In this document: positions 35,265 through 58,624 of the stretch, piece after piece
Layout of the letters: the number at the start of each line of letters is the position of its first letter
How positions within the stretch are numbered: position 1 is the first letter of the stretch
Source of the DNA: Balneolaceae bacterium
GTDB lineage: Bacteria > Bacteroidota > Rhodothermia > Balneolales > Balneolaceae
Direction of reading: 5' to 3'
Length of the DNA: 64,000 bases
Assembly (NCBI GenBank): GCA_034521495.1
Contig: JAXHMK010000010.1
Location: 434,001-498,000, forward strand
The notes under the pieces: model-generated
What the model was told of the DNA's origin: nothing
The model's input: only the letters and a program-made list of their open reading frames with translations
The model's database searches: none
Translations under genes and position numbers: made by a program

Positions 35265-35392
35265 AACGTTTTTACCGGTTAGATTTTAATTAAAAAAGTG
35301 TGGATTTAGCATTAATTAGTTTACGGCTTTGGTTTAAGAAATATTTTTGAAAAGCTAAATTTTTGATCATTACATAGTTTAGCCTACTTCGA

Positions 35393-37394: not shown

Positions 37395-38195
37395 TCATTT
37401 TATTGCTTTAATTACCACAATTGAATCTGCCCACCAAGTATCTTTAACATTTTCCGGCAAATTTAAAGGCAATACGCTCACATTAAATGAAGAAAAATGC
37501 TTCAATAATAAATGTTGATGCTCTCTGCCTACTGACTGTATTTCGTTTGAAAAATATGTAAATGCCCCACCAGGTTTTAAATGTTCTGATGCATAACTAA
37601 AAAAATGTTCAGCAAATGTTATACTGGCATGAACGTATTCCATGTACTCATCTTCATTTAATGGATAGGTATGGAAAAAAATGCCGTCAAAACTTCCCAA
37701 ATCGTCAATGGTATTTTGCCATAACCCTTCAACTAATCGTATGTCTTTATCCGGATACGTAGCTTTCCACGGGTTAAAATATTCTTCAATAACATTAGCG
37801 TTACATTCAATGATAGTGTGTGACTCAATGGGATATTTTTGAATGATTTCAGCTGAAACCCCGCGACCAAACCCGATTTCAAGAATGTCACCTCCCCGAT
37901 TTGTTATGGCTTTTGCCATAGCCTCCATCAAGGGGATTTGCCAATCTTCCATAATCTCTTGATCAGATAGCTGAGCTTGTTCACGTTCTGCAAAACCAAC
38001 AAAGTCATTAGCAGATGTTTCGCCGGGAACAAAATTTTTAGTTTGCTCATTAAGCGCATTGAGATCTGCACAAAATTCCTTAAGAGCTCTGTTAATCACA
38101 GCATTACGTTGCGCAAGTTTTGGTGGGTTAATAAACTGATCATCCTTAATGACTAATGAAATTTCATAAGCTTCTGTTCTTTTTATTCTTTTCAT
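37395..38195 (-). CDS. Guanidinoacetate methyltransferase-like (GAMT/RMT2-type) methyltransferase
   Basis: 266 residues. The SAM motif DILEIGFGRGVSAEIIQKY and the following SHTIIECN are the hallmarks of GAMT and RMT2, and the downstream GIFFHTYPLNEDEY matches the DGIFFDTYPL motif whose acidic and aromatic residues hold a guanidino or amidino group; GGAFTYFSNE completes it. Here His replaces the usual Asp of FDTYP. It lies 300 bases after the NRPS gene on the same strand, so co-expression is plausible. I infer N-methylation of an amidino, guanidino or related nitrogen in the peptide product. Confidence 0.78.
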   Translation of the reverse strand: MKRIKRTEAYEISLVIKDDQFINPPKLAQRNAVINRALKEFCADLNALNEQTKNFVPGETSANDFVGFAEREQAQLSDQEIMEDWQIPLMEAMAKAITNRGGDILEIGFGRGVSAEIIQKYPIESHTIIECNANVIEEYFNPWKATYPDKDIRLVEGLWQNTIDDLGSFDGIFFHTYPLNEDEYMEYVHASITFAEHFFSYASEHLKPGGAFTYFSNEIQSVGREHQHLLLKHFSSFNVSVLPLNLPENVKDTWWADSIVVIKAIK

Positions 38196-38495: not shown

Positions 38496-41400
38496 TTAAT
38501 TGAGCTTGGATTGTATGATATTGGCTATGGAGTCGCTGTAACCGGCTATGGTTGGATGCTCAAAAAGCTCCCGAAGCGGAATTTCCAAACCTAGCTTTTC
38601 CTCCATTCGCGATGTGATACGAATAGCGGCCAGAGAATTGCCGCCGAGCGCCAGGAAACTATCAAATACGCCAATTTCATTCACTTGAAGGACTTCTTGC
38701 CAAGTAAGGGAAATCATTGCTTCTAAATCATTCCTGGGAGCCTGGTAAGTGCTTGTATTGGTAAATTGCGAGTTAGGGTCGGGAAATTTTGCTTTATCTA
38801 CTTTTCCATTAGCTGTTACGGGAATCTCTTCAACATGAATAAACCGGTTTGGAATCATATATCCTGGCAAAAAATTGGAGAGTTCATTTTGCAGTTTCTC
38901 GTCATCAAAACGTTTTCCTGTATAGTAAACAACGATCCCCTTCGTCAAATGAGACGGGTCAAAATCATAGCCAATTTCGTCCATCATTTTAAAAACTTCT
39001 GCCTCGTCAATCTCTTCATTAATTTCATCGATCGATTCCTTCCTTGTTTTATGACCAATTCTAACATCCCAGCTGTATGGGAATGCATAGTTGCTGTATC
39101 CTTCCTTCTTCTTATGGACATAAATTCCCAATTGATTGATTAGACAATTTGTGCTCCTGCCGGTATCGGTGGGTCGCTTCCAGCCCAATGTTTCATCCAA
39201 ATACTTATACATTTCAGCCAAACTGCTGTCGCAAAAACGATAAAAGTCTACAAATTCAACCTTCTCAAACACTTCATCATTCTCAAAAATAGAGACATCC
39301 AGGTGCTCTGATACAGCATCGTCGATGCGATGATACTCTTTGCGAGCTTCTAAAATAATTTCATCAATATTTTTTATACTCGTATTACTTTTAAAGAGTT
39401 CTTCACTGAGCCTGGTTTCAAAAAACTGTCCCCTGGATAAACCCGTTACAATGATGGGGATATTTTTTTCCAAAGCTACATGCGTGCTCAATGTATAAAT
39501 GGCCTTGAAGCATCCGTTGCAAACATTGCTGTGTCGCTGTAAACTATCCACAAAAATCTCGTTCATAGCATCTGTGGAATCGATCAGCAGATCCACGCCA
39601 AGATCATTGCAAATTTTACGAGCGTTATCGAGAGCTTCTTCAGAGATAAAACCATTATCGAAATTGTAGGCTAATACACGAAAACCAAGTTCTTTCAGCT
39701 TCGCGAGTGCATACGTACTGTCCTTTCCTCCGCTCAGAAGCATGATGCAATCATACTCGCTGTAACTTCTTTTTCGTCTGTTGATCAACTCTCTCAGATC
39801 ATCCATGGTTCGAAAGTAATGGGATACCTGAGACTGGTAATTATCAAAATTTTGGCACAGGGAACAGACACCTTCCGAATTGTAACTTATCGAGGGATAA
39901 TTGGAGGGCAGGCCACATGAGGTACAATAAAACAGGTTTTCAGCTTTGTTTCGAATATCGTTATCCCAAACCATAGCTACTGTTTGAGTCGATTCTGTGA
40001 CCTTAGCAACTGCAGTTTCTATCTCCCCGAGTTCTATTCTATACCCATTGAGTTTAACCTGGTCATCTTTTCTGCCCAAAAACTCAAAATAACCCTCTTC
40101 ACTGATGCGTGCGTAATCACCGGTTTTATATAATCGTTGGTTTGGAAACAGTTCATGTTCAATGAATTTTTCTTCTGTAAGGGAGTCATTTCCCAAATAT
40201 CCTTTTGCGACGCCATGGCCCATCAGGTAGATTTCGCCGGTGGTATTTGGCAATACAGGTTTCAATTCTTCATTAAATAAAACTGCGTGCATATTCCTGA
40301 TCGGTTTACCGATAGGCACTTCAGAACTGGTATCTGTTTCCGGATCAAATTTGTGAAATATGCATCCCACGGTAGCTTCTGTAGGCCCATATTCGTTATA
40401 AATGCTGAGTTGATTGCCATATGATTCTTGAAAGCGACCGGCCAGGGCTGTGGAGAACGATTCTCCGCCAACGATAAGAGCTTGTAGGTTGGAATGGTAG
40501 GGAAGATTATTTTTCACTAACTCCAGGTGAGTTGGAGTAGCTTTAATAAGGTTAAAATTTTGATGATTAAAAACCGATTTTAGATCAACGATCTCTTCTT
40601 TTTCATTTTCAGGATAAACGGTACTAACTCCACCTGAGATCAGGGGCAAAAACAATGAAGTGAGTGTTAAATCAAAACCGATAGAGGTAAACAATGGTGA
40701 GTGAACAGGCGCTTTGTTCAAATAGAAATCGTTAGCCCAAAATATATAATTTGCAAACGAATGATGACGAACCTCCACGCCTTTAGGATTGCCTGTACTG
40801 CCTGATGTATAGATCACATACATGGGATCGCTTGGATCTATTTTTTGAATCGTGCATTCTGATAATTCCTGTTCTTCGATCTCCTGTATTATGGCTAAAT
40901 CTATTGTCAGTGCTGCATTTGTATCCTCTTTGATATACTCAGCTCTTGATACAGGGGTCGAAATTGGGATCGGAACCGCACAGTTATTATTGAACAATAC
41001 ACCAAACAGGGCTTCAACATACTCTATACTTCTGGGAAGATGGAGGTTAACTTTTTCCTGTGTTTGAACTCCTTTGGACTGTAAATATGCCGCGATACTC
41101 GATGCTTTTTGAAACAAGTCCTGATAGGAAAGTTCTGTTTCGCTCTGCACAAGTGCAATCCCATTTGGGTTGGTATCCACGTGGTGAAGAAAATGCTCCA
41201 ACACATTTCCTTCAGTTTCTGTGAAGGAGTAGGAAAGTAGTTTTTCGATCTCAGGAGTTAACCGGATTTCATTCAGAACTTGTTCAGGATTTAACGAGAG
41301 CTTATCTAAAGTAGCCTTTAGGTAAGTAATGAAATCCTTTCGGTTTTTAGGAGTGAAGTACTGATCATTAAAATCGATACAGAGATGAAAATTTCCCGTT

Positions 41401-42515
41401 CCGTCAAAATCATGAACCTGTACACGCAGTTGATCGGTTTGATCAATAAATCCATTACTCAACCATTTTGATTGAAATTCTATGCCGTTAAAAGAGCCGA
41501 AAGACTGATTGGCATAGTTGAGGACTATATTGAAACCACTCCGTATTTTTGCATTGGTTGCACCTGGTTTTGCAAATTTCAGCAGTTCAAAGACCTGATT
41601 TTGTACTTTTTTATAGAGAGTTTGAAAACTCTCATTTTCTTCGATCTTGATGTTTACCGGAAAGAAATCCAGAAATAAACCTGTTGTGTTCTTGTACTCC
41701 GGCTTAACTCTGCTGTGCAAAGGTGTACCGATTCTTAGATCCCGTGTGGAAGAAATTTTATAAACCACGGAAAAAATTGCGGTCATAAAAAGCTGATACA
41801 GTGATAGCTCTTTCGTTAAGCTTTTGAAGTCTTGATGATCTGCCAGTGCAGAGAGTTTTTTTGTCAGGTTTTCACCTAAATCGATATGTTCGCGGGTGCT
41901 GGTGCTTTCTTTGCCAGCTTGTAAGGGAAATAACTCAATTCGTTTGGACGGTTCTGATTTTTCCTCCCAGTATGATATGGATGTTTTATTATCTGCATGT
42001 TGCTCAAATGAGATATAGTCTTCGTATTGATGAGAGCTTACTTCTGACTTTTCATGAAAGTAAAAAGACTTTAAGTCCTTAAAGTAAAGCGTAAAGGACC
42101 AGGCATCGGTGATGATATGATGCAAGTTAAAAAACCAAAAACTTTTATTTTTCCCCTGCAATAAAACTGAATCAAAACATTTTTTTTCCAGGTTAAATTT
42201 ATTCTGGACACGATTATCCAGCCAGGTTTTAATTTCAGTGTCAGAAAAATCCTCGATATCAATCACTTCCAGTTTTTCAGGCTGGTAATCATTTACATAT
42301 TGAACAGGCTTATCCCGTTGCTCAATAAATACAGTTCGCAGGGATTGATGCGTTTGCAAAAGTTTATTGAATGCGTCATTGAATCGATCGGCATCGAGTC
42401 TCTGATGGAATGTAAACGTAAAAGCTACATTATAGATTGGAAGATCAGGCTGTAATTTTTGTCCTAGCCAGATCAATAGCTGCTGAGAAGTGAGTGTATA
42501 TCTTCTGTCCATCAA
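38496..42515 (-). CDS. NRPS module C-A-[PP-loop insertion]-PCP, predicted Asn-type
   Basis: 1339 residues. Condensation domain about 1-425 with active site HHIITDAW at 132-139. Adenylation domain from about 440: A3 YTSGSTGNPKG 569-579, A5 NEYGPTE 707-713, A7 YKTGD 796-800, A8 GRKDDQVKLNGYRIELGEIE 814-833. It resumes at about 1191 with A9 FLPGYMIP and A10 TANGK (Lys1238). Between lies a foreign domain of some 335 residues (described separately). Carrier domain with Ser1294 in LGGNSL. The ten pocket residues, read by eye, are DLTKIGEVGK, one residue from the Asn code DLTKLGEVGK as I recall it. It begins one base after the upstream carrier-protein gene ends. As the first condensing module it should accept the acyl group from that free carrier. 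Confidence 0.92.
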   Translation of the reverse strand: MMDRRYTLTSQQLLIWLGQKLQPDLPIYNVAFTFTFHQRLDADRFNDAFNKLLQTHQSLRTVFIEQRDKPVQYVNDYQPEKLEVIDIEDFSDTEIKTWLDNRVQNKFNLEKKCFDSVLLQGKNKSFWFFNLHHIITDAWSFTLYFKDLKSFYFHEKSEVSSHQYEDYISFEQHADNKTSISYWEEKSEPSKRIELFPLQAGKESTSTREHIDLGENLTKKLSALADHQDFKSLTKELSLYQLFMTAIFSVVYKISSTRDLRIGTPLHSRVKPEYKNTTGLFLDFFPVNIKIEENESFQTLYKKVQNQVFELLKFAKPGATNAKIRSGFNIVLNYANQSFGSFNGIEFQSKWLSNGFIDQTDQLRVQVHDFDGTGNFHLCIDFNDQYFTPKNRKDFITYLKATLDKLSLNPEQVLNEIRLTPEIEKLLSYSFTETEGNVLEHFLHHVDTNPNGIALVQSETELSYQDLFQKASSIAAYLQSKGVQTQEKVNLHLPRSIEYVEALFGVLFNNNCAVPIPISTPVSRAEYIKEDTNAALTIDLAIIQEIEEQELSECTIQKIDPSDPMYVIYTSGSTGNPKGVEVRHHSFANYIFWANDFYLNKAPVHSPLFTSIGFDLTLTSLFLPLISGGVSTVYPENEKEEIVDLKSVFNHQNFNLIKATPTHLELVKNNLPYHSNLQALIVGGESFSTALAGRFQESYGNQLSIYNEYGPTEATVGCIFHKFDPETDTSSEVPIGKPIRNMHAVLFNEELKPVLPNTTGEIYLMGHGVAKGYLGNDSLTEEKFIEHELFPNQRLYKTGDYARISEEGYFEFLGRKDDQVKLNGYRIELGEIETAVAKVTESTQTVAMVWDNDIRNKAENLFYCTSCGLPSNYPSISYNSEGVCSLCQNFDNYQSQVSHYFRTMDDLRELINRRKRSYSEYDCIMLLSGGKDSTYALAKLKELGFRVLAYNFDNGFISEEALDNARKICNDLGVDLLIDSTDAMNEIFVDSLQRHSNVCNGCFKAIYTLSTHVALEKNIPIIVTGLSRGQFFETRLSEELFKSNTSIKNIDEIILEARKEYHRIDDAVSEHLDVSIFENDEVFEKVEFVDFYRFCDSSLAEMYKYLDETLGWKRPTDTGRSTNCLINQLGIYVHKKKEGYSNYAFPYSWDVRIGHKTRKESIDEINEEIDEAEVFKMMDEIGYDFDPSHLTKGIVVYYTGKRFDDEKLQNELSNFLPGYMIPNRFIHVEEIPVTANGKVDKAKFPDPNSQFTNTSTYQAPRNDLEAMISLTWQEVLQVNEIGVFDSFLALGGNSLAAIRITSRMEEKLGLEIPLRELFEHPTIAGYSDSIANIIQSKLN
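38946..39953 (-). other. PP-loop ATP pyrophosphatase domain embedded in the adenylation domain
   Basis: Residues about 855-1190 of the NRPS. A zinc-ribbon-like start has C864xxC867 and C884xxC887. It is followed by the PP-loop LLSGGKDST at 926-934, which binds ATP in the adenine nucleotide alpha-hydrolase superfamily, then FDNGFISEEA. A further CxxC is at 999-1002 (NVCNGCF) and a Cys at 1124. Three such cysteines recall TtuA-type sulfur transferases that bind an Fe-S cluster; the start resembles N-acetyl sugar amidotransferases (WbpG/WbuX). The insertion site, between A8 and A9, is the one used by methyltransferase domains embedded in other A domains. Confidence 0.88.
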
Positions 42516-42764
42516 TTAATCTTGTTTTTTCTCTAAATATTGTTCAATTGCGTTTAAGTTCATAAAATTTTCAATGACAATTTCGCCAGGAGGGATCTTC
42601 ACACCTGCCTCATTTTCAATGAAAGCTACCAACTTCATAATTCCCATAGAATCGATAATGCCTGAACCAAGCAGATCATCATCATCCGAAATGGAGAGAT
42701 TTGGATCATTTGCAATATCAGTTAGGATGAATGCTTTAATTTTTTGAATCATAAATGGTTTCAA
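42516..42764 (-). CDS. Free-standing peptidyl/acyl carrier protein
   Basis: 82 residues, four-helix carrier with the 4'-phosphopantetheine attachment Ser in SGIIDSMGIMKL (about residue 39). The acidic surface and DSMG sequence resemble the discrete carrier proteins of pyrrole-2-carboxylate pathways and DltC-type carriers. The gene overlaps the end of the adenylation gene by 29 bases, so the two are coupled, and it would be loaded by that enzyme. Confidence 0.88.
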   Translation of the reverse strand: MKPFMIQKIKAFILTDIANDPNLSISDDDDLLGSGIIDSMGIMKLVAFIENEAGVKIPPGEIVIENFMNLNAIEQYLEKKQD

Positions 42765-44307
42765 TGTTATGTATAAGAGCCTTGTAGTTTACTTTTCCTG
42801 CCGACGTCCTGGGAATCTCATCAGTTTCCAAAATTAACTTTGGTATCGAATATTTCGGTAATGATTTATGAATATTTTGTTGTAATTCATCTAATGATGC
42901 ATCCTTCTCTAAGACAACAGTAGCAAATATTTCATTAATTTCATCGAGTTTACAACTATAACATGCTACATGTTTTATCTCAGCATACCTGGCGATGGTT
43001 TCCTCAACCTCATTTAATTCTACCCGGTGACCTCTTGTTTTAATTTGCCTGTCTTTTCGCCCGATAAAATGCAACAGACCATCTTGATCCTCCTTAACAA
43101 GGTCTCCGGTTTTATAGAACTTTTTTTTCAAACCTGAGGCGCTTTCAAGTTCAAGAATTGACTTTTGGGTACGTTCCTGGTTATTCCAGTATCCACGCAT
43201 CATGGTTGATGAATGGATGAGCAATTCACCGATCTCTCCCTGTTTTACGGCTGCATTATTTTTATCCAGTATTAGATGTTCAGTGTCGTCCCATACCTTA
43301 CCCAGTGGTACAGAATCGTAGTTTTCAACTTTTTGGTTTTGATTATAGAAGGTGCATTGATTGACTTCTGCAGGCCCATACACGTTTGAAAAAAAAGCAT
43401 TCGGACAGTGATCCAGGAATTGATTGAGTTGATAAACCGAAAAGGGTTCACCCCCAAATAAAATCCAGCGCAAAGATGACAGGTCTCGGCTTTGCAGATC
43501 TCCCCGTTCCAACAGCTGTTGCAGGACCAATGGAACAGAATACCAAACCGTGACTTTCTCTTGCTCTATCAACTGGCTCAAACTAGCGGGAAATATAGAA
43601 TACTGTTTTCCCAGAATGATACACGTTGCACCTGCCAGAGGGGCTGTGAAATAACCAAGCGTACTCATGTCAAAATGGAGCGGAGAATGGTTGGCTACAG
43701 TATCACTGTCTGAAATATCATACAATGCCTTACTTAGCTTTGCATAACTCAGGCCGCTATAATGAGTATGCATAATTCCTTTTGGAAATCCGGTCGTACC
43801 GGAGGTATACATGATATAAGCCAGGTCACTACTGAGGATTTTTAAATCAGGGAGTTGCGACGGATAGGTGTTCAAGATGTCCCAGGAAAAAGAAGAATGA
43901 GTTGGGTGAGTTGTATCTAAACCAAGGAGAGTAAGTTTTTCGGAAATGGATTGTATGGCAGATGTACAAATCTCTGCAAATGTCTGTTCGCTGATGATAA
44001 TTTTAATGTTGCAGTCGTCCAGGATGTATTGAATTCGTTTAACGGGTGCGTCTGTATCAATAGGTACAAATACACCACCAGCCTTTAAGATCCCATGAAC
44101 AGCAAGTGCACTTTTCACATTTCGGTTCAGCAAAACACCCACACGGTCTCCCTTTTTTAAACCTTTGTCTATTAAGAAATTTGCTATCTGATTTGTCTTT
44201 TGATCGACCTCGGAATACCTAACCGACTCATTTCCAGATTTGAAAGCCGTTTTGCCAGGGACTTTGCGGGCCGATTGCGGGAATATTTGACTAATCGTAT
44301 AAATCAC
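42736..44307 (-). CDS. Stand-alone amino acid adenylation enzyme (proline-adenylase-like)
   Basis: 523 residues, an A domain without carrier. A3 YTSGTTGFPKG at 167-177, A5 NVYGPAE, A7 YKTGD 398-402, A8 GRKDRQIKTRGHRVELNEVE, A10 with Lys505 in TSAGKV. Pocket residues read by eye: D-M-L-Y-L-G-V-Q-C-K, which shares D, L-Y-L, C and K with what I recall for free proline adenylases of the PltF/PigI type. It would form an aminoacyl adenylate and load the next-encoded carrier. Its start abuts the dehydrogenase stop with no gap. Confidence 0.87.
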   Translation of the reverse strand: MIYTISQIFPQSARKVPGKTAFKSGNESVRYSEVDQKTNQIANFLIDKGLKKGDRVGVLLNRNVKSALAVHGILKAGGVFVPIDTDAPVKRIQYILDDCNIKIIISEQTFAEICTSAIQSISEKLTLLGLDTTHPTHSSFSWDILNTYPSQLPDLKILSSDLAYIMYTSGTTGFPKGIMHTHYSGLSYAKLSKALYDISDSDTVANHSPLHFDMSTLGYFTAPLAGATCIILGKQYSIFPASLSQLIEQEKVTVWYSVPLVLQQLLERGDLQSRDLSSLRWILFGGEPFSVYQLNQFLDHCPNAFFSNVYGPAEVNQCTFYNQNQKVENYDSVPLGKVWDDTEHLILDKNNAAVKQGEIGELLIHSSTMMRGYWNNQERTQKSILELESASGLKKKFYKTGDLVKEDQDGLLHFIGRKDRQIKTRGHRVELNEVEETIARYAEIKHVACYSCKLDEINEIFATVVLEKDASLDELQQNIHKSLPKYSIPKLILETDEIPRTSAGKVNYKALIHNIETIYDSKN

Positions 44308-45459
44308 TTAAAACATTAACATTTTTGCAATAATGTTTTTTTGAATATCAGAAGTACCTGCTAAAATTAAAGATCCGACGACATCTCTGAGGTTTCTTTC
44401 AATACCAAACTCGCTTACATAGCCTTTGGCTCCAAAAATACGGATAAAATCCAGGCTATTGGACACAGCAGATTCACTCAACTGTAGTTTTAAAAGTGCA
44501 GAATCCATGGGGACACTTTCTCCATTATCCTTAAGCCAGGCTAGTTTAAAGAGTAATAATTTTGATGTTTCAAGGCGCAGCTTCATATCTGCAATTCGAT
44601 GACTCACTGCTTGAAACTCACCAATGGGTTTACCAAATTGTTTACGTTTTTTAGCATAGTCAACAGCCTCTTCAATTTGTCGCTCCATCGCTCCAATGAC
44701 AGAAGCCAAGATAAAACATCGGTCGTATTCGAGAGAGTAATTGGAAATGCTCATACCTGCGCCTTCTTCTCCAATTCTATTTTCCACAGGTACTTTACAA
44801 TCATTGAAAGTGATAGACCCGAAGGGAGCAGTGCGCATTCCCATTTTTCCCTGGTTTGATGTGGGATTATATCCTTCCGTGTCACTCTCGATAATGAAGG
44901 CCGAAACACCCCATTTCCCAACCTTTGGATTGGTAAGGGCAAATACAATGGCGATATCAGCATTTGGGGATAGGGTGACCCAAACTTTCTTGCCATTTAA
45001 CACATAATAATCTCCCTCACGAATGGCAGTGGTTTGCATGTTAAACACATCAGAACCGGAGTCTTCTTCGGACAAAGCGTGACACCCAATCCAGGTACCA
45101 TCGCTCATTTTTGGTAAATATTTTTCTTTTTGTGTTTCGGTTCCAAATTCTGTGATTGTCATCATCACAGACCACATATGAGCATTCAGGGTTAAACCCA
45201 GGCCATTGTCTTTACAACCATAGCCAATACCGCTCATGGCTAACGTTGCTCTTTGAAGGTTAACGTCTTCAAAGCTACCTCCATATTTAGCAGGTGCAGC
45301 TAAACCTTGAATCCCAAAATCAGCACATTTCTGCCATAAATCTTCAGCAAAAATACTTTGTCGATCACGTTGTTGCACATTGTCATTCAGATGATTTTGT
45401 GCAAATTCCTTTACTTTTTTTTGATATTCTAAATAGTCTGAGGGGAAATCAAAATTCAT
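44308..45459 (-). CDS. Acyl-CoA dehydrogenase family; L-prolyl-carrier dehydrogenase-like
   Basis: 383 residues, FAD flavoenzyme. The N-terminal signature IGYGCKDNGLGLTLNAHMW and the central SEEDSGSDVFNMQTTA are close to the prolyl-S-PCP dehydrogenases (PigA, RedW, PltE group). The acid of the IYEGT motif used by fatty acyl-CoA dehydrogenases is replaced (LILAGTSDIQ), as is usual in enzymes with the base elsewhere (compare LEYDRC). In those pathways the enzyme oxidises carrier-bound proline to pyrrole-2-carboxyl thioester. The start overlaps the upstream gene by four bases. Confidence 0.85.
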   Translation of the reverse strand: MNFDFPSDYLEYQKKVKEFAQNHLNDNVQQRDRQSIFAEDLWQKCADFGIQGLAAPAKYGGSFEDVNLQRATLAMSGIGYGCKDNGLGLTLNAHMWSVMMTITEFGTETQKEKYLPKMSDGTWIGCHALSEEDSGSDVFNMQTTAIREGDYYVLNGKKVWVTLSPNADIAIVFALTNPKVGKWGVSAFIIESDTEGYNPTSNQGKMGMRTAPFGSITFNDCKVPVENRIGEEGAGMSISNYSLEYDRCFILASVIGAMERQIEEAVDYAKKRKQFGKPIGEFQAVSHRIADMKLRLETSKLLLFKLAWLKDNGESVPMDSALLKLQLSESAVSNSLDFIRIFGAKGYVSEFGIERNLRDVVGSLILAGTSDIQKNIIAKMLMF

Positions 45460-46514
45460 CCCTGTACCTCAACTTTTAGAAATTCATAGGGATTTTTGGC
45501 ATCATCGGGTACATACTCAATCTGCATAAACTCTCCGACGTTGTGTTTCTTTGCTAAATCCATAAACAGGTTAAAGACCACCATATCTTCCAATGCCCAA
45601 CCTGTGGAGTCAAAAACTGATACCTGGTTTCTGTAAGTTTCGTGTTGTAGTGGATATTGTACTACCTGGTATAACTCGGGTCCAATGTAGCCTTTAAGGA
45701 GTTGTTGACATTCTCCTTCTTGTAGTGCCTGTTCTAAAAAGTCGGGACAAACAAACGCATCTTTTAGGAGTTCTACAGGCAACTCCACTTTGCCTGGAAA
45801 ATCGGAACCTACAGCGTTGATATGTACATGGCGTTTTGTTGAAATATCCTGGAATAAGGGACCCTCCCCAATTCCAATAGAGGTTTGACTGCAAATCACG
45901 TCACTTTCTTGAACAACCTCTTGAACCGATGAATCGATGATTGGACACTTTATATCCAAAAAATCGACCCGAGTTTTAAAACTCTGTTGGGAATTCGGAT
46001 CGACATCATAAATCAAGACCTTTTCAATTTGCATGATTCTGGAAATCGCGTGCAATTGTGTAACAGATTGTGCTCCGCAACCAATAAGGCCTAAAACACC
46101 ACTCGAAGAATGGGCTAAATACTTCGTAGCTACTGCAGATGCGGCCCCCGTCCGTAGAGCGGTCGGTAAAACTCCATCCATTAAACCTTGCAGATGACCT
46201 TTGGACGTGTTGTAGGAGGAGATGGTAGAAGCAATGGTTGGGATTTGATATTTCCTTGGATTGTTTGGATGGTATCCTACCAGTTTAATAACAATGTCGG
46301 AACCCGATTGATAGATTGGCATCCACTCAACCAAACCCGGCTCTGGTAGTTTATAGTTAAAGCCTGATCGAACCGGAATTTTTAACTGTACGTGATCATA
46401 ATTTCGTACTTCTTCTTCCAACCTGGAAATGAGCAGGTCCATAATTGTATTAATTCCTACAGTATATATCAGCTCCTGAAGATCTTTTTCCTTCAGTAAT
46501 AAAGTTCGATGCAT
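45456..46514 (-). CDS. Ornithine cyclodeaminase/mu-crystallin family protein
   Basis: 352 residues. Family motifs: MPIYQ and IVIKLVGYHPNNP in the substrate domain, TALRTGAASAVATKYLA, the dinucleotide fold LGLIGCGAQSVTQLHA, and NAVGSDFPGKVELP with the catalytic Asp region, ending in FDSTGWALEDMV. Members make L-proline from ornithine, or act as SbnB-like amino acid dehydrogenases or pyrroline reductases. No SbnA partner is present, so 2,3-diaminopropionate is less likely. As first gene of the leftward operon it could supply proline to the adenylase. Its promoter region contains a long inverted repeat. Confidence 0.85.
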   Translation of the reverse strand: MHRTLLLKEKDLQELIYTVGINTIMDLLISRLEEEVRNYDHVQLKIPVRSGFNYKLPEPGLVEWMPIYQSGSDIVIKLVGYHPNNPRKYQIPTIASTISSYNTSKGHLQGLMDGVLPTALRTGAASAVATKYLAHSSSGVLGLIGCGAQSVTQLHAISRIMQIEKVLIYDVDPNSQQSFKTRVDFLDIKCPIIDSSVQEVVQESDVICSQTSIGIGEGPLFQDISTKRHVHINAVGSDFPGKVELPVELLKDAFVCPDFLEQALQEGECQQLLKGYIGPELYQVVQYPLQHETYRNQVSVFDSTGWALEDMVVFNLFMDLAKKHNVGEFMQIEYVPDDAKNPYEFLKVEVQG

Positions 46515-47100: not shown

Positions 47101-49437
47101 ATGAATAGGCTTAAATTGACATTTGGGAACATCAAAATATTAAAGAATATTAAAACTCTGATATTCACAGGAGTTTTTCTATTGGGCATATCTGAACTGG
47201 TTCGCAGTCAAAATTCGGGTACCATTACGGGAACGGTTTTATCAGATTTAAATGATTCACCATTGATAGGCGTCAATATTTTACTTGATAGAACTCGATT
47301 TGGTACGACAACCCTCGGTGACGGTGCCTTTACAATAGCAAATGTTCCTGCCGGGAGTTACCAGATACAATTTAGCATCATAGGATACCGGGAAGAGATA
47401 CGAACGGTGGATGTGAGTGCAGGTGAGGTGACGAGGGTAGAGATTGCTCTTACGGGTCAATCCACTGAATTGCAGGAGATCATCGTTGATGGGCGTGCTG
47501 TAAATCTGGTGGGTGTTTCGGAATCGGCTTCTCAGGGAAAAGTTGGCATGGCTGAATTAGCCTCTCGCCCTCTGTTGAGGACAGGCGAAGTGATGGAAAC
47601 AGTTCCTGGTTTAATTGCCACACAACACAGTGGGTCAGGGAAAGCAAACCAGTTTTTTCTGAGGGGTTTCAACCTGGATCATGGTACCGATTTTGCTGCG
47701 TCTCTAGAGGGTGTGCCTTTGAATCTGCGAACCCATGGCCATGGCCAGGGGTACTTGGATCTTAACCTGCTCATTCCAGAATTAATCAATACTGTAGAAT
47801 TCAGAAAAGGCCCCTATTACTCAGAAGTTGGCGATTTTGCTACATCCGGTAGTGCCGACATCGATTTAGTTAGTTCCCTGAATGGTCCCATGCTGAAAAC
47901 AGAAGCAGGTGTGGATGAGTTTTATCGCGGACTCTATGCCAACTCTTCAAGCATTGGAAATTCTGAAATCTTATATGCGTTAAATACACAATATTTTAAT
48001 GGACCATTTGACGTTCCCGAGAATGCCATTCAATACAGCGGTGTCGTTAAACTCTCCGGGGGAACTTCCTCGAATGGATATGCTGTGACAGCGCTTGGGT
48101 ACAAAAGTGACTGGAAAGCGAGTGATCAGATCCCATTTGAAGCGGTTGATACCGGGTATATTTCAAGATTTGGAGTGATAGATTCTACCGATGGAGGCGA
48201 GACAGATCGGTATACACTGATTGGTAATTGGTGGAATTCATCTGAATCTTATGCGAACACAGAAGCAACGGTTTATGCCAGCTATTATCGCCTTAATCTA
48301 TTTTCAAACTTTACCTATTTCTTAGAGAATCCAGAACGAGGAGATCAGTTTGAGCAGGCCGATCGCAGGTTTTACAGTGGAGCTCGTATTTCACACGAGT
48401 GGTTTACAAACTGGTTTGGAAGACGCACAATTAATACTGTGGGAGCAGATTTTCGCCACGATCAAATTTTTGAAATCGGTCTGTATAACACGGTAGGTCG
48501 AGATCGATGGAATACTGTACGCGATGACATTATTGGAGAGAGTAGTCTTGGCGTACATTTTAAAAACGAGACGCAATGGACGGACAAATTTCAAACGAAC
48601 CTAGGGTTGAGAGCCGATCTTTTTTACTTCAATGTGAATAGCAATATAAATGTGAACTCTGGGAATGAATTTGATACAATATTTAGTCCCAAATTCAACA
48701 TAATATTGGGCCCCTGGAACGATACAGAATTCTATATCAATACCGGTATGGGATATCATAGCAATGATGCACGCGGGACCACAATACAGGTTGATCCTGT
48801 TACGAGAGAGCCTGTTGATACAGTAGATCCCCTGGTACGGACACATGGTGCTGAAGTGGGTGTCCGGACGGCAGCGATTAGCGGGCTTCAAACCAGTCTT
48901 ACTTTCTTCTATCTTGGTTTAGATTCTGAACTCGTATTTGTGGGGGATGCCGGTGGAACGGAAGCCAGTGATGCAAGTGAACATATTGGATTTGAATGGG
49001 CCAACTATTATCGACCTGCAGAATGGCTCAAATTCAACCTTGATATTGCATTAACAGAGTCTCGATACCGGGAACTGGACTCCGATAGCAACCAAATTCC
49101 GAACTCTATCGGGCGAATTATAACAGGGGGATTAACTGTAAATCCTGTAGGCGGATGGTTGAATACATTTCGTTTGCGACATTTTGGCCCGAGGCCGTTG
49201 GTTGAAACGGGAGATATCAAATCGGATGCAACAACACTGCTGAATATTAAGACCGGTTATGATTTTGGAAGTGTACAAGTAGATCTGAATCTGCTGAATG
49301 TATTTGATACGACAAATACGGATATCAGTTACTACTATACATCTCGCTTTCGAAGCGGGGGGCCAGAAGTAGGCGACATACATTTTCATCCGGTGATTCC
49401 AAGATCTGTGCGACTCTCACTTACCTGGAGGATTTAA
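47101..49437 (+). CDS. TonB-dependent outer-membrane receptor
   Basis: 778 residues. Signal peptide through about residue 36 (ELVRSQ), then a carboxypeptidase-regulatory-like beta-sandwich (about 38-125, GTITGTVLSDLNDSPLIGVNI), then the plug domain (about 140-255) and a 22-strand barrel finishing in SVRLSLTWRI. The plug contains the His-rich THGHGQGYLDLNLLIPE at about 211-227, which may relate to metal binding. It would import a chelated metal or other ligand using TonB energy. First gene of the rightward arm, and separated from the next by a terminator. Confidence 0.93.
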   Translation: MNRLKLTFGNIKILKNIKTLIFTGVFLLGISELVRSQNSGTITGTVLSDLNDSPLIGVNILLDRTRFGTTTLGDGAFTIANVPAGSYQIQFSIIGYREEIRTVDVSAGEVTRVEIALTGQSTELQEIIVDGRAVNLVGVSESASQGKVGMAELASRPLLRTGEVMETVPGLIATQHSGSGKANQFFLRGFNLDHGTDFAASLEGVPLNLRTHGHGQGYLDLNLLIPELINTVEFRKGPYYSEVGDFATSGSADIDLVSSLNGPMLKTEAGVDEFYRGLYANSSSIGNSEILYALNTQYFNGPFDVPENAIQYSGVVKLSGGTSSNGYAVTALGYKSDWKASDQIPFEAVDTGYISRFGVIDSTDGGETDRYTLIGNWWNSSESYANTEATVYASYYRLNLFSNFTYFLENPERGDQFEQADRRFYSGARISHEWFTNWFGRRTINTVGADFRHDQIFEIGLYNTVGRDRWNTVRDDIIGESSLGVHFKNETQWTDKFQTNLGLRADLFYFNVNSNINVNSGNEFDTIFSPKFNIILGPWNDTEFYINTGMGYHSNDARGTTIQVDPVTREPVDTVDPLVRTHGAEVGVRTAAISGLQTSLTFFYLGLDSELVFVGDAGGTEASDASEHIGFEWANYYRPAEWLKFNLDIALTESRYRELDSDSNQIPNSIGRIITGGLTVNPVGGWLNTFRLRHFGPRPLVETGDIKSDATTLLNIKTGYDFGSVQVDLNLLNVFDTTNTDISYYYTSRFRSGGPEVGDIHFHPVIPRSVRLSLTWRI

Positions 49438-49804: not shown

Positions 49805-50995
49805 ATGAAAAAGATATTACTCACCCTAAGTCTGTTTTTAATAGTTAATCTGGCAGAGGCGCATAACCCGGATCAAAGTTATCTGTACCTTTCAACATAC
49901 CAGGACGGTATTGAAGGTGATGTGCAAGCCAAAGCCCAGGAGTGGAATGCAGCATTGGGGACAAACCTTCCTAAAAACTTTACAAAAGAGGACCTCGCAG
50001 CTATACTTCCTCAAATCCATGAGTATATCCTTGAAAATATTTCTATCCGTTCTGAACTGGGTGATCACTCCATCACGTTCGTGGATTATGATGTATTGAA
50101 CGAAGGCGGATCACTGGGAACTTTTTCCCGAATCCTCTTCAGATTAAATAATGTGACAACAACTCCAGAAAATTTAGAGATCACTTACGATCTCTTTTTC
50201 GAGATCGACGATGAACATCGCGCACTCCTTTTACAAGCGTACAACTGGAAAGCAGGGATTATAGACAATGAGAGTATTCATTCAGCGATCTTTACTCCCC
50301 AAAATACAACTGTAAATTTAGATGTATCTGAAGGGAATACCTGGAACGGCTTTATAGCCATGATTCAGTTAGGCATTTGGCACATCTGGATCGGTATCGA
50401 TCATATCTTTTTCATAATGGCCCTGGCATTGCCGGCTGTGGTTTATCGATTGCCAAATCGTACCTCGATCACAGAATTATTCTCTCAGTGGGAAGGTGTG
50501 GATAAATTTAAACCTGCTTTTTGGTACATCGTAAAGGTGATCACATTTTTTACGATTGCGCATTCTATTACACTGAGCCTCGCAGCACTTGGGGTTTTTG
50601 ACCTGAATGCACGAATTGTAGAGTCCATTATTGCACTCTCCATTGCCTTGGCAGCACTTCATAATATCCTACCGGTCTTTAATCATAAAGAGTGGTTAAT
50701 TGCACTTGGATTTGGGCTTTTTCATGGTTTTGGTTTTGCCGGAGTTTTAGCTGAAAAAGGGTTAAGTGGTGAGTATATGGCTCTGTCTCTATTTGGCTTT
50801 AATTTGGGTGTCGAAATTGGCCAATTACTGATCATACTCGTTATATTTCCAGTATTATTCTTTATGAGAAAAACAAACTTCTACTCCTATTTTGTGATTC
50901 TATCATCATCAGCGTTGATCATATTGTCACTGATTTGGACTTATGAAAGATTTTTTGATGTGAATATTCCCGTACGGGCGATTGTCGGTTTATAA
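49805..50995 (+). CDS. HupE/UreJ-like membrane protein
   Basis: 396 residues: signal peptide (cleaved after about residue 19, LAEA), a periplasmic beta-rich domain (about 20-185), and six or so C-terminal transmembrane helices. The membrane part has HupE/UreJ-like signatures rich in His: WHIWIGIDHIFFIMALA (about 192-208), IAHSITLSLAALG, ALGFGLFHGFGFAGVL and FNLGVEIGQL. HupE and UreJ are nickel or cobalt permeases, but members with this extra periplasmic domain are uncharacterised. Directly upstream of the NRPS genes (16-base gap), so very likely in one operon with them. Confidence 0.85.
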   Translation: MKKILLTLSLFLIVNLAEAHNPDQSYLYLSTYQDGIEGDVQAKAQEWNAALGTNLPKNFTKEDLAAILPQIHEYILENISIRSELGDHSITFVDYDVLNEGGSLGTFSRILFRLNNVTTTPENLEITYDLFFEIDDEHRALLLQAYNWKAGIIDNESIHSAIFTPQNTTVNLDVSEGNTWNGFIAMIQLGIWHIWIGIDHIFFIMALALPAVVYRLPNRTSITELFSQWEGVDKFKPAFWYIVKVITFFTIAHSITLSLAALGVFDLNARIVESIIALSIALAALHNILPVFNHKEWLIALGFGLFHGFGFAGVLAEKGLSGEYMALSLFGFNLGVEIGQLLIILVIFPVLFFMRKTNFYSYFVILSSSALIILSLIWTYERFFDVNIPVRAIVGL

Positions 50996-51010: not shown

Positions 51011-54000
51011 ATGGATAAGTCGAAACTCTTAGCAGAATGGCTGGAACAAAAAGCGTCCGACTCTGATGAGCTGCAAAAAAAACCGGCTAGTCGTCCTAAC
51101 CGATTATCAAATGGACAAAAGAGGTTATTTTTTTTACAACAATTAAATCCATCAAGTCCATTTTACAATTATTCAGAATTGTACACACTTCGTGGGAATT
51201 GGGATATTGAAAAATTTAAAAATTGTATTTATGAGGTCTGTCAAAACCATGAAATTTTTTCTTTTAACTTTAAACTGAACAGTGAACATGAACCTGAAGT
51301 AGTCATTAATAAGGATGGAGATCAGGTTCAAATCGAGCATGTTGATCTATCAGAAATATCAAATCAAAAGAGCTTAAATGAGTATTTCCTCGCAAAAGGG
51401 AGATACTCTTTCGATCTTGCCCAGGATAGTTTATTTCGAGTAACCATTGTTTCAATATCTGAAACTGAACATAAGATATTGCTGACCTTACATCACATCA
51501 TCACTGATGAGTGGTCAATGAGAATTTTTAGAAAGCAATTGTTAGAGAAATATAAAAACCAGAATGGTTCAGAAGGTGGGAAAGATACTTTGGGAGATGA
51601 GTATAATTATTTAGACTATAGTTATCACCAGAGTAAGATAGACATTCCTGAACAGGAAATTAATTATTGGAAAGAAAAGCTTTCTAATGCATCTGATGAA
51701 ACGGTACTGCCTGTGGATAAAAAACCTGCAGAGATTACTCATAATGGGCAGATAAACACTATTGTTCTTCCTCTTGAACTCACAAAAAAAATTAAAGAAT
51801 CATCGAGAGAGCAAGAAACTACGTTATTCACCTTTTTCTTAGCAGTCTATAATATTCTATTACATCGATATAGTGGAGCAGATACAATAAATATTGGCAC
51901 ACCTATCAGCAATCGCAACCGAAAAGAATGGGAATCGCTGTTTGGTTTTTTTATTGAGACTGTACTATTGCAGACTCATATTCAATCAGATGCAACCTTT
52001 AAAGAATATCTACAAGAAGTTAAACGTGATGTTTTAGAGGCTTTTGATTACAAGAAGGTCCCTTACGAAACGATCGTCAGTCAGTTATCCACACAGAGGA
52101 AGGTGCACAAAAATCCTCTGTTTCGCACCATGTTTCTCTTCCATCACAAAGAAGAAGAAAAGCAACCTTTGCCTGGTTTACAATTTGATTATGAGACATT
52201 TGATATTGGTGTGGCAAAGTTTGATTTGACAATGTTTGTAGAAGATGACAATAAGAATTTGAGTATAACTTTTGAATATGCAACCGATTATTTTGAAGAG
52301 GAGACGATTGAACGAATGCAAGGTCATTTTCAAACATTATTGGAAGATGTTGTCAAAGATTTAGATCAAGAGATCGATGAGCTGGATATACTGACGGAGG
52401 AGGAACAATCTCAATTTGAAAACTGGAATGAAACTGACGTTGAGATCGATCCCATTCCTATCGATCGTGCGTTCGAAAATATTGCAATTGAACATTCAAA
52501 CGCAGTGGCAGTGACCGACTCGAACGGCAAAATGAGTTATCAAGAGCTGAATGATCGATCTACTGCACTAGCCAATAAAATAAACGAGTATTCGCAAAAC
52601 GGAGGAAGGGTAGGGCTTTTCCTTGGCAGAAATGCTGATATGATAATCGCCATGCTGGGTTCACTGAAAAGCGGCTGCAGCTATGTACCGCTCGATCCAT
52701 CTTATCCCGGAGATCGTATTCAATACATTATAAAGGATGCAAATATTGAACTCGTCATCACATCATCTGATTTGATTGAAGATCTAGATTCAGATATAGA
52801 CATTAAAAAAATTGAGATTGACATAATAGAGAGGGTGTACACTTCTGAATCCGGTTTTATTAAATCCCATACCATAGACGATGAAGCTTACGTAATTTAT
52901 ACTTCCGGAAGCACAGGGAAGCCAAAAGGAGTGAGCATCTCGCACAAAAATTTATTCTATTCCACATTTTCACGCCCCATTTTTTATGAGAATGTAAATC
53001 CATCCTGTTTTCTGCTGTTCTCTTCCTTCTCCTTTGACAGTTCCGTTGCAGGAATCTACTGGACACTGTTAACAGGAGGTAATTTACTGATTTCCCGGGA
53101 AAGAGCAGAGCAGGATATCAAGCAGGTTGCCAAAGTGATTCACAATGAAAAAGTAAGTCACACGTTGCTTTTGCCAAGCTTGTATGAAGTGCTGCTTCTC
53201 GAAACGGAAGTAAATCTTTTGAAGAGCCTGGAGGTTGTAATGGTTGCCGGGGAGGCATGTTCAACCCGTACGGTTGAACAGCATTTTAGCAGCCTGCCAA
53301 CGACGAATCTCTATAATGAATATGGCCCTACCGAAGCAACGGTTTGGTGCATTGCCCATAAATTATCCTTGGATGACTCGGTCACTCGAGTACCCATTGG
53401 TCATCCCATCCCCGGATCTACGGCGTATATTTTAGACAAAAACAACCGCCGGCTACCCGTTGGGGTGACCGGAAATCTGTACATTGGCGGAGAAGGAGTG
53501 TCTAGTGGATACATTGGGAATGCAGCTGAAGATAATGATCAGTGGGTCAATAACCCGTTTGGGAATGGAAAACTCTATAAAACCGGTGATCAGGCTTCCT
53601 TCAGAAAAGATGGAAATATTGACTTTTGGGGGAGAGCCGACAACCAGGTTAAAATCAGGGGGCACCGGGTAGAGTTAAAAGAGATAGAAGAGGCCCTATC
53701 CTCAATCGATGAGATCACGAGGGCAATTGTAATTTTTGACGATAGCCGACAAAAATTAGTCGCATTTGTCACGCAACATCAAACACCCGGCATTTCAGAA
53801 AAAGAGTTACAACAAAGGCTGAAACAGTTACTGCCGGTTTACATGATTCCTTCTGCCATACGGTTGATTGAAGAATTTCCCCGACTGCCCAATGGAAAAA
53901 TTGATCAGAAGAAACTGATGGAAACAGCTTCTCAAACAGATCGGGAGGAAGATAAATTGCAAAACGAAGAACTATCGACGATAGAAAAGGACCTGATCGA

Positions 54001-55528
54001 GATTTGGGAAGAGGTATTAGGCCAATCAAATATAGGAGTAAACGACAATTACTTTGCCCTGGGCGGAGATTCAATTAGCAGCATTCGAGTCGTTTCAAAG
54101 GCAAAGGCAAAAGGGATCAACCTTTCTCCAACTCAAATTTTTGAGACTCAAACTATAAAAGAGATCTCTACTTATTTAAAGAATAAAAGGAATACGAAAG
54201 ACCTTCCAGAAGCTACATCAACTTCATCAAAAAGTCCGATTCAGCATTGGTTTTTTGATTTTATGACGACTCATCCCAATCATTGGCATCAAATTTTAGA
54301 GTTTGAAACAAATATAAACAAAACAGAAGATGAGTGGAAGCAACTGTTTCATTCAATAATGCAGCGACATCAGGCTTTACGATCCTATTTCAATGATGAT
54401 GAACAAATATTTACTGAAAAGAGATCTGTGAATAGTTCCCATCAATTTTTACACTTTTTTCAACAGGGGGACAAACATGAACTCACCCAAAACTTGATCC
54501 GGCAAACAGATATAACAGCAGATAATCTTTTTCAAGTGCTTGTACTATCTGGAAAGCAGACTACTACTGTTCGCTTGATTGCCCATCACCTTATAATGGA
54601 TCTTTTTTCTTTCAATCAAATATTACAAGAAATCAGTGCGGAACTTTCTAATAAAGCGGTTCTGCAACCAACGTATCAGTATAGCCAGTTCGCCAACTAT
54701 CTTGAACAATTGAATGAAGATGGATTTTTTGATGATGAATTGTCTTTTTGGGAAGATCAATATTGTCAACTGGAATTTTGGGAATCATTTTATGAATCGG
54801 ATATCAGAGAGCATAAATTAGAACAAGAAACCATTGAGCTAACCGAAGAGAATACCAAAGAATTAATCCGGTTTAGTCAAGATTCATCTTATAAAATGGA
54901 AGAGATTGTTTTGGCTTCTCTTTTATTGGCAATAAATAAAAAATTAGAGATCTCAGAGATCATGATGGGTTTGGAACACAACGGTCGGGAACTGCCCAAT
55001 CAAATATCATTATCAGATTCTGTGGGTTGGTTCACCTCTTCCTATCCCAGAAAGTTCACAATTCAAAAAGGAGATAAGAATGCCTCTCAATTGATCGAAA
55101 CTCTAAGAGAAACACCAAACTTTGGAATTGGGTTTGGTGTACTGAAGTACCTGAAACAAGTGGAAAGCCTGAAAATGTTCAGTCAATTTCCGATTAGTTA
55201 CAATTACATTGGCAAATTAGTAACGCAAAATTTTAACCACATCGATTCCTACCGATACATTGCTGAAGAAGCGAGAAATGTAAAGTGCAAAGTGTTTAGT
55301 CCGTTTGATTTTTCAGCAGGTATCGCAGAAGGTCAATTACAGATTAAGTTTCTGCACCCTCAAGAACTCTATTCTTCAAAAAATGCAAAAGATCTATTGA
55401 ATGATGTAAAACAACAACTGTTTGCTGTTACAGAGCAATTAAAAGAGCGCAATAACGTGTCTAATGACAATGTTGATGATTTAAGTGATACCGACCTCAA
55501 CGAATTATCAAAACTGTTTGATTTGTAA
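51011..55528 (+). CDS. NRPS module C-A-PCP-E
   Basis: 1505 residues. Condensation domain about 25-440 with HHIITDEWS at 161-169. Adenylation domain: A3 YTSGSTGKPKG 630-640, A5 NEYGPTE 769-775, A7 YKTGD 856-860, A10 LPNGKIDQ 959-966. Carrier Ser1021 in LGGDSI. Epimerisation domain from about 1070: PIQHWFFDF, HHLIMDLFS 1192-1200, EHNGREL 1322-1328, SVGWFTSSYP 1337-1346, ISYNYIGKL. All E-domain motifs are present, so it should deliver a D-residue. Pocket residues by eye: DSALMAEVWK, no substrate I can name. The first C domain means it extends a chain begun by the leftward arm's enzymes. Confidence 0.94.
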   Translation: MDKSKLLAEWLEQKASDSDELQKKPASRPNRLSNGQKRLFFLQQLNPSSPFYNYSELYTLRGNWDIEKFKNCIYEVCQNHEIFSFNFKLNSEHEPEVVINKDGDQVQIEHVDLSEISNQKSLNEYFLAKGRYSFDLAQDSLFRVTIVSISETEHKILLTLHHIITDEWSMRIFRKQLLEKYKNQNGSEGGKDTLGDEYNYLDYSYHQSKIDIPEQEINYWKEKLSNASDETVLPVDKKPAEITHNGQINTIVLPLELTKKIKESSREQETTLFTFFLAVYNILLHRYSGADTINIGTPISNRNRKEWESLFGFFIETVLLQTHIQSDATFKEYLQEVKRDVLEAFDYKKVPYETIVSQLSTQRKVHKNPLFRTMFLFHHKEEEKQPLPGLQFDYETFDIGVAKFDLTMFVEDDNKNLSITFEYATDYFEEETIERMQGHFQTLLEDVVKDLDQEIDELDILTEEEQSQFENWNETDVEIDPIPIDRAFENIAIEHSNAVAVTDSNGKMSYQELNDRSTALANKINEYSQNGGRVGLFLGRNADMIIAMLGSLKSGCSYVPLDPSYPGDRIQYIIKDANIELVITSSDLIEDLDSDIDIKKIEIDIIERVYTSESGFIKSHTIDDEAYVIYTSGSTGKPKGVSISHKNLFYSTFSRPIFYENVNPSCFLLFSSFSFDSSVAGIYWTLLTGGNLLISRERAEQDIKQVAKVIHNEKVSHTLLLPSLYEVLLLETEVNLLKSLEVVMVAGEACSTRTVEQHFSSLPTTNLYNEYGPTEATVWCIAHKLSLDDSVTRVPIGHPIPGSTAYILDKNNRRLPVGVTGNLYIGGEGVSSGYIGNAAEDNDQWVNNPFGNGKLYKTGDQASFRKDGNIDFWGRADNQVKIRGHRVELKEIEEALSSIDEITRAIVIFDDSRQKLVAFVTQHQTPGISEKELQQRLKQLLPVYMIPSAIRLIEEFPRLPNGKIDQKKLMETASQTDREEDKLQNEELSTIEKDLIEIWEEVLGQSNIGVNDNYFALGGDSISSIRVVSKAKAKGINLSPTQIFETQTIKEISTYLKNKRNTKDLPEATSTSSKSPIQHWFFDFMTTHPNHWHQILEFETNINKTEDEWKQLFHSIMQRHQALRSYFNDDEQIFTEKRSVNSSHQFLHFFQQGDKHELTQNLIRQTDITADNLFQVLVLSGKQTTTVRLIAHHLIMDLFSFNQILQEISAELSNKAVLQPTYQYSQFANYLEQLNEDGFFDDELSFWEDQYCQLEFWESFYESDIREHKLEQETIELTEENTKELIRFSQDSSYKMEEIVLASLLLAINKKLEISEIMMGLEHNGRELPNQISLSDSVGWFTSSYPRKFTIQKGDKNASQLIETLRETPNFGIGFGVLKYLKQVESLKMFSQFPISYNYIGKLVTQNFNHIDSYRYIAEEARNVKCKVFSPFDFSAGIAEGQLQIKFLHPQELYSSKNAKDLLNDVKQQLFAVTEQLKERNNVSNDNVDDLSDTDLNELSKLFDL

Positions 55529-57945: not shown

Positions 57946-58624
57946 AAACACTGTTCATATTTGGGTAGTGGAAACAAACTACAATTCATTACCGAATTTT
58001 CTTTCTGCTGCAGAGAGAAAGAGATGGAATGGTTTCTACTTTTCACAAGACAAGCAAACATTTTACCAGTCGCATAATGCTTTAAGACTCATTTTATCCC
58101 GCTACCTTTCTGAAAAACCAAGTGAGATAGAGTATGAATTAACTTCATTTGGCAAACCCTTTTTAAAAAACAAGAAGTTACAATTTAATCTAAGTCATAC
58201 GAATACAATGGCTGTTATTGCTGTAACTGAAGACTCGGAAATTGGTGTAGATATTGAAAACTTAAATCGAAAAGTGGAGTATGATGATCTAGCAAAACGA
58301 TTTTTTTGTGAGACAGAATATCAGAAATTAGTACAAGTCTACCCTGAAAAAAAAAGAAATGTCTTCTTCAATTGCTGGACACGCAAAGAAGCGTTTATCA
58401 AAGCCGTTGGCGAAGGTTTGAGTTATCCACTGAACGATTTTGAAGTGACCTTACTATCCAATGAGCCTGTTCAAATTAATCATATTCAACAAAATTTTGA
58501 AACTCCAAAACAATGGACACTTGATAGTAAAAACTTAGATGAATACACCATTGCAACTGCTGTAAAACGTGAAAATTCTAATTTTGAATCTCGAGAGTTC
58601 AACCAGCTAATTCAATCATTATGA
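57932..58624 (+). CDS. 4'-phosphopantetheinyl transferase (Sfp type)
   Basis: Activates the carrier domains by attaching phosphopantetheine from CoA. I choose ATG 57932, which overlaps the NRPS stop by 14 bases, giving 230 residues; an earlier start at 57860 would overlap by 86. The motifs are FGKPFLKNKKLQFNLSHTNT, IGVDIENLNRKV with the Mg-binding Asp/Glu, and WTRKEAFIKAVGEGLSYPL. All three carriers of the cluster depend on such an enzyme, supporting the cluster being self-contained. Confidence 0.93.
   Translation: MKLNRNTVHIWVVETNYNSLPNFLSAAERKRWNGFYFSQDKQTFYQSHNALRLILSRYLSEKPSEIEYELTSFGKPFLKNKKLQFNLSHTNTMAVIAVTEDSEIGVDIENLNRKVEYDDLAKRFFCETEYQKLVQVYPEKKRNVFFNCWTRKEAFIKAVGEGLSYPLNDFEVTLLSNEPVQINHIQQNFETPKQWTLDSKNLDEYTIATAVKRENSNFESREFNQLIQSL

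Follow-up and report, generated by a model that had tools for sequence, protein, structure and literature searches.

The window analysed here, a 64,000-nucleotide stretch of a Balneolaceae contig, encodes a single-module nonribosomal peptide synthetase (NRPS1) whose adenylation (A) domain is interrupted by a PP-loop domain of the AANH superfamily, and the sequence indicates that this insert is very probably a working enzyme acting on the cargo of its own module. The reaction proposed for it is the exchange of oxygen for sulfur on the carrier-bound Asn unit, a reading based on sequence conservation, structure prediction and analogy with characterised enzymes, to which a probability of about 0.5 is assigned. 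Interrupted A domains, AANH thioamide synthetases and pyrrole starters are all known parts, while their combination is new; a search of open-licence papers returned no description of the cluster, its product or its function, although a description elsewhere is possible.

An adenylation domain interrupted by an AANH domain

NRPS1 comprises the following elements, all of which lie on the minus strand:

38496..42515 (-): NRPS1, a single C-A(PP-loop insert)-T module of 1339 aa with no thioesterase (ORF and domain matches)
41241..42506 (-): condensation (C) domain, residues 4-425, active-site motif HHIITDA (Pfam PF00668, E=1.6e-57)
39954..41213 (-): first part of the A domain, A1-A8, residues 435-854, code DLTKIGEVG(K), read as Asn
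38946..39953 (-): embedded PP-loop/AANH domain, residues 855-1190 (TIGR03573 at 863-1179; AF2 pLDDT 93.8; 85-member alignment)
38730..38945 (-): last part of the A domain, A9-A10, residues 1191-1262 (motifs read directly, and alignment)
38535..38705 (-): carrier (T) domain (PF00550)

The listed start codon is TTG with an ATG immediately after it, so that 42512 is the likely start on the minus strand. In the Pfam search an AMP-binding match covers residues 444-774 and a carrier protein match residues 1271-1327, the latter with the motif GGNSL. The motifs A3 (YTSGSTGNPKG), A5 (NEYGPTE), A7 (YKTGD) and A8 (GRKDDQVKLNGYRIELGEIE) precede the foreign catalytic domain and A9 (LPGYMIP) and A10 (NGKVDK) follow it, which is the arrangement of an interrupted A domain and bears out the sequence-only reading, in which a PP-loop ATP pyrophosphatase had been placed between A8 and A9 of an otherwise complete A domain. 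The catalytic motifs of the insert are intact. A strict core-motif test for such interruption was passed by 58 of 84 loci, the remainder having truncated or variant motifs, and in the relatives 45-60 residues separate A8 from the first Cys of the insert. The structure prediction that the same reading had proposed as a check gave an A-insert-T model (pLDDT 86, pTM 0.58) in which the insert is flanked by two beta strands belonging to the C-terminal subdomain of the A domain. Fourth among the structural matches of the module model was TioS AMA4 (PDB 5wmm), itself an interrupted A domain; it resembles NRPS1 in that a tailoring enzyme is placed inside a working A domain, but its insert is a methyltransferase whereas that of NRPS1 is an AANH domain.

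The A-domain code DLTK(I/V/L)GE(V/I)G, together with the A10 Lys, was found in every readable fusion (DLTKIGEVGK in the window), and we read it, by the general NRPS code, as specifying Asn, the residue already predicted from the sequence alone.

Comparison with the Rhodohalobacter copy (L046:7439-11458) showed a DNA identity of ~70 % up to residue ~800 and of ~93 % over all that follows residue ~850, with the step located at A8, just before the insert, and the methyltransferase downstream of NRPS1 is also near-identical to its counterpart there. This pattern suggests that the NRPS1 gene is a mosaic produced by recombination with a breakpoint near A8.

Conserved residues and relatives of the embedded domain

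Within the insert the following elements were located, in agreement with the motifs that had been described before:

39855..39926 (-): zinc-ribbon-like CxxC-x16-CxxC, Cys864, 867, 884 and 887 (alignment; common to free-standing WbuX relatives)
39717..39734 (-): PP-loop SGGKDS, residues 928-933 (invariant in 85 fusions)
39510..39521 (-): CxxC (Cys999, Cys1002), proposed [4Fe-4S] ligands (85/85 fusions; same column as the LarE CxxC)
39144..39146 (-): Cys1124, proposed third [4Fe-4S] ligand (85/85 fusions)

Across 85 aligned inserts the PP-loop is kept, as are seven Cys positions, of which C884 alone varies, in one row, and dozens of further residues are invariant across 12 phyla. The CxxC and the distant Cys (Cys999, Cys1002, Cys1124) are present in 85/85 fusions versus 8/37 free-standing relatives, and the sulfur-insertase pattern SGGxDS + CxxC + distant Cys is carried by all 85 fusion inserts. 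Conservation of the family in 80 loci led to the rejection of chance or mis-assembly as the origin of the fusion.

An HMM search with the insert alone, another of the checks suggested earlier, gave 151.6 bits for the WbuX model TIGR03573 (147.6 bits with full NRPS1; residues 863-1179), and this model matches 68/68 members of the family. Membership of the WbuX N-acetyl-sugar amidotransferases was rejected because the score lies below the cut-off of 203.2 and the HisH/HisF partners are absent; a search of all loci for these partners located them in L042/L043 alone, next to a canonical WbuX that is separate from the fusion. Two other memberships were likewise rejected, namely QueC (TIGR00364; 35.8 vs 150.3 bits, with the C-x8-C-x2-C-x2-C motif absent from the insert) and LarE (TIGR00268; 24.9 bits vs a cut-off of 150). 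The Pfam match inside the insert is to the PP-loop family (QueC), at residues 923-997, and there are weak matches to QueC, TtuA and LarE.

The insert alone was predicted by AlphaFold with a pLDDT of 93.8, and its closest overall fold is that of the sugar amidotransferase 8wex (Z 20.0 over 305 residues); the nitrile synthetase ArtA ranks third among the structural matches (Z 13.8; sequence E 0.038), and the sulfur insertases LarE, NcsA and TtuA score Z 13.4, 13.3 and 12.6. The WbuX/WbpG enzymes (TIGR03573, 8wex) share with the insert the overall fold, the N-terminal four-Cys ribbon and the PP-loop, but they use a sugar substrate with HisH/HisF partners and lack the CxxC-C, none of the three extra Cys (999/1002/1124) being present at the aligned columns of 8wex. 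By sequence, the family profile has its best PDB match in the [4Fe-4S] LarE 8cnz (E 9e-11), with the CxxC in register. In global hhalign comparisons with four LarE sequences from other genomes the CxxC aligned with the CxxC and the third Cys did not align; the spacing from CxxC to third Cys is longer in the insert than in LarE, and the context of the third Cys resembles that of LarE as judged by eye. The LarE/TtuA/NcsA/TtcA sulfur insertases share PP-loop, CxxC and distant Cys with the insert, but they are free-standing, act on nucleotide or tRNA substrates and have a different C-terminal region.

It has been reported that AANH enzymes in which three Cys, a CxxC plus a distant Cys, hold a [4Fe-4S] cluster insert sulfur (PMC9283937), and that the Fe-S AANH enzyme CtaC thioamidates a carrier-bound nonribosomal peptide in a manner dependent on D77/S78/C154/C157/C284 (PMC6772006). 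CtaC and the insert have in common the AANH superfamily and the [4Fe-4S]-type CxxC plus distant Cys, and the insert, built into a C-A-T module, would like CtaC act on a carrier-bound substrate. By comparison with the published residue positions, the counterparts in the insert, in its own numbering, are D78/S79/C145/C148/C270, which follow in the same order and with similar spacing. CtaC differs in being free-standing, in acting in trans on CtaE and poly-beta-alanine, and in occurring in anaerobes. It also resembles the fusion clusters in that no sulfur-donor gene is encoded alongside it.

Distribution of the fusion

The search for the same A8-A9 insertion elsewhere covered 84,980 public genomes and yielded 213 encoded relatives of the insert, the best 80 of which were kept. 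These best 80 of 213, many of them on short contigs, belong to at least 12 phyla and are nearly all the same single-module fusion, most being single ORFs of ~1340-1870 aa with an A domain before and a T domain after the insert. The earlier impression that similar fusions exist with no function assigned was well founded. A 2026 survey of the QueC family had listed, as subcluster 1 of cluster 5, multidomain proteins of 900-2603 aa, mainly from Flavobacteria, which share SGGxDSxY and YDC with WbpG, were not described as NRPS and were given no function (PMC13329287); the insert also has SGGxDSxY and YDC, so this subcluster and the fusions probably belong together.

A tree of 65 sequences placed the 28 fusions sampled for it and a Streptomyces split form on one side of a single branch (support 100/100), separate from the free-standing WbuX-like proteins, with twelve phyla represented among the tree loci. 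Six entries among the free-standing WbuX-like proteins (L016-L019, L024, L027) carry a CWHC motif (mostly DFCWHC) plus a distant Cys, and such proteins of the wider phylum sample are possibly another Fe-S AANH group, as far as their sequences indicate.

Within the sample of the window's own phylum the fusion was found in a single further genome, which belongs to the same genus and has it at 97 % identity, and 2/28 genomes of that genus carry it. An IS1182-type transposase and a probably truncated methyltransferase adjoin the cluster in the window (34530-37000), which, together with the 2/28 count, suggests recent gain or loss of the cluster. Plasmid-borne fusions of 51-52 % identity occur in two Roseobacter-group bacteria, where a canonical WbuX-HisF-HisH operon adjoins the fused NRPS (L042/L043:1953-5304) and the whole region is common to both plasmids. 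On a Streptomyces plasmid (L044:19932-22112) the protein is split, the AANH domain being fused to a partial C domain, and its neighbours are an A-T protein, AsnB and an Asp/Glu racemase; AsnB, searched for in all loci, was found only there. In cyanobacteria and some others (L071, L074, L075, L079, L086, L087, L102, L117) an additional epimerase-like domain follows at the C-terminus of the fused module, which implies that the modified Asn would be D-configured.

The conserved gene cluster

The other genes of the cluster in the window are these:

37395..38195 (-): guanidinoacetate N-methyltransferase homologue, optional tailoring gene (PDB 1xcj, E=6.5e-25; in 8 loci)
42516..42764 (-): free-standing carrier protein, 82 aa, proposed prolyl/pyrrolyl carrier (homologue adjoins NRPS1 in 40+ loci)
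42736..44307 (-): free-standing adenylation protein, proline-type by context (tblastn, 76/86 loci, a count that includes weak cross-matches to other A domains, the clustering counts being stricter)
44308..45459 (-): PigA/RedW-type L-prolyl-carrier dehydrogenase (NF053553, 394 bits, and NF045652, 349 bits, below the NCBIfam cut-offs of 500 and 650)
45456..46514 (-): ornithine cyclodeaminase-like protein (PF02423, E=9.7e-59)
47101..49437 (+): TonB-dependent receptor (PF07715 and TIGR01783)
49805..50995 (+): HupE/UreJ_2 membrane protein (PF13795, E=9.1e-45)
51011..55528 (+): NRPS2, C-A-T-epimerase-like, code DSALMAEVW
55537..57945 (+): NRPS3, C-T-thioesterase, no A domain
57860..58624 (+): Sfp-type phosphopantetheinyl transferase (PF01648)

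The recurring neighbours of NRPS1 are the proline-type adenylation protein, the PigA/RedW-type dehydrogenase, the free carrier and HupE/UreJ_2, with the TonB receptor in Bacteroidota. A pyrrole-2-carbonyl starter is made by such a set of enzymes in prodigiosin and other pyrrole pathways, and the recurrence of the first three genes makes it the most likely starter here. The NRPS2 code DS(A/V)L(I/M/V)AEVW is conserved across phyla (in the window and about 38 related loci) and matched no residue that could be named, while the carrier of NRPS3, which has no A domain, must be loaded in trans or skipped. In nine Flavobacteriia loci (L066, L067, L082 and six others) a conserved ORF of ~155 aa lies between NRPS1 and the TonB receptor; a Pfam search with it returned no match.

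A HupE/UreJ homologue is present in 47-52/86 loci and a TonB receptor in 27-28/86, and conserved metal-uptake genes of this kind beside an NRPS are a mark of metallophore clusters. The chances of the product being a metallophore can be put at about even. HupE/UreJ proteins have been described as nickel permeases (PMC4771312), and the relationship of the window's HupE_UreJ_2 protein (PF13795) to them makes nickel or cobalt the first guess for the metal.

Proposed chemistry and alternatives

In the proposed scheme, the A domain would charge the T domain with L-Asn, to which the C domain would attach the pyrrole-2-carbonyl formed from proline on the separate carrier. The insert would then bind ATP at SGGKDS and adenylate an amide oxygen of the carrier-bound unit, the target being the amide of the Asn side chain or else the backbone amide newly formed in pyrrolyl-Asn. 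A putative [4Fe-4S] cluster on Cys999/Cys1002/Cys1124 would present sulfide, which would displace AMP to give the thioamide, after which NRPS2 and NRPS3 would extend and release the product. The latter would probably be an exported metal ligand, which the TonB receptor would recover and the HupE/UreJ protein would handle. Sulfur insertion is inferred from the invariant CxxC-C, from the published three-Cys [4Fe-4S] AANH enzymes and from the residue agreement with CtaC, and the position of the insert in a C-A-T module fits action on a carrier-bound substrate. In addition, the Asn code never varies where it is readable, the neighbourhood of pyrrole-starter and HupE/TonB genes is conserved, and the clusters lack a glutaminase partner. 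On the other hand, the predicted fold and family of the insert are nearest overall to an amidotransferase (Z 20.0 vs 13.4 for LarE); no sulfur-donor gene recurs in the clusters, as judged by a search of all loci for cysteine desulfurase-type proteins of the own genome and for ThiS; many fusion carriers are probably aerobes, and such Fe-S clusters are oxygen-labile; and the homologue of guanidinoacetate methyltransferase that 8 loci carry could be a sign that some products contain an amidine or guanidine.

The sequence-only reading had left thioamide and amidine equal; its assignment of the insert to the PP-loop superfamily holds, and the balance has moved toward sulfur. For an amidine, ammonia would attack the adenylated amide as in WbpG/WbuX, giving a beta-amidino residue from Asn or an amidine from the pyrrolyl amide, and the product could cyclise onto the thioester. 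The WbuX amidotransferase is indeed the nearest fold and family, the methyltransferase homologue could methylate an amidine, and an AsnB gene lies beside the Streptomyces split version; this outcome is a real contender but nonetheless unlikely given the sub-threshold WbuX score, the lack of a HisH/HisF partner except where a separate canonical WbuX operon adjoins, and the extra invariant CxxC-C, which is missing in the solved amidotransferase 8wex.

Nitrile formation of the QueC/ArtA type is, like the conserved pyrrole/HupE/TonB cluster, an addition to what had been read from the sequence. Adenylation of the Asn primary amide followed by elimination of AMP would give carrier-bound beta-cyanoalanine without any donor, in keeping with the lack of a conserved donor gene, and this amide is the right type of substrate for QueC-like dehydration; QueC is moreover the Pfam match and ArtA the third structural match (Z 13.8). 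It too is a real contender but quite unlikely all the same, as the QueC model score (35.8 bits vs 150.3) and the absent QueC Cys motif speak against it, the ArtA sequence match reaches only E 0.04, and the conserved CxxC-C would be left unexplained. Activation of the amide might instead drive ring closure to an imidazolone, pyrrolidinone or similar, with or without sulfur and with no open thioamide or amidine, since NRPS1 itself lacks a release domain and, to go by its architecture, an adenylated amide would lie near a thioester and other nucleophiles; NRPS2 and NRPS3 with its thioesterase provide a normal release route, however, and cyclisation is very unlikely. Decay of the insert, or a purely structural role as a passenger, is extremely improbable: inserted domains can in principle be inactive, no tool result favours this here, and PP-loop, CxxC-C and dozens of other residues are invariant across 12 phyla.

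Significance

Thioamides in nonribosomal peptides are very rare, and one characterised thioamide synthetase for them, CtaC, was found, which acts in trans. If O-to-S exchange by the insert is true, a cis-acting version embedded in an A domain would be a new class of assembly-line tailoring and a portable part for engineering. It is conceivable, if at somewhat less than even odds, that these clusters specify a widespread and hitherto unrecognised class of metal-binding peptides with a pyrrole-2-carbonyl and a thioamide (or amidine) Asn, made with a built-in AANH thioamide synthetase in at least 12 phyla including marine cyanobacteria and Bacteroidota. That the cluster is nearly fixed across so many phyla, with its pyrrole starter, Asn, a further residue that is conserved, HupE and TonB, points to one conserved small molecule, which would be of ecological importance and whose metal may be nickel, cobalt or copper.
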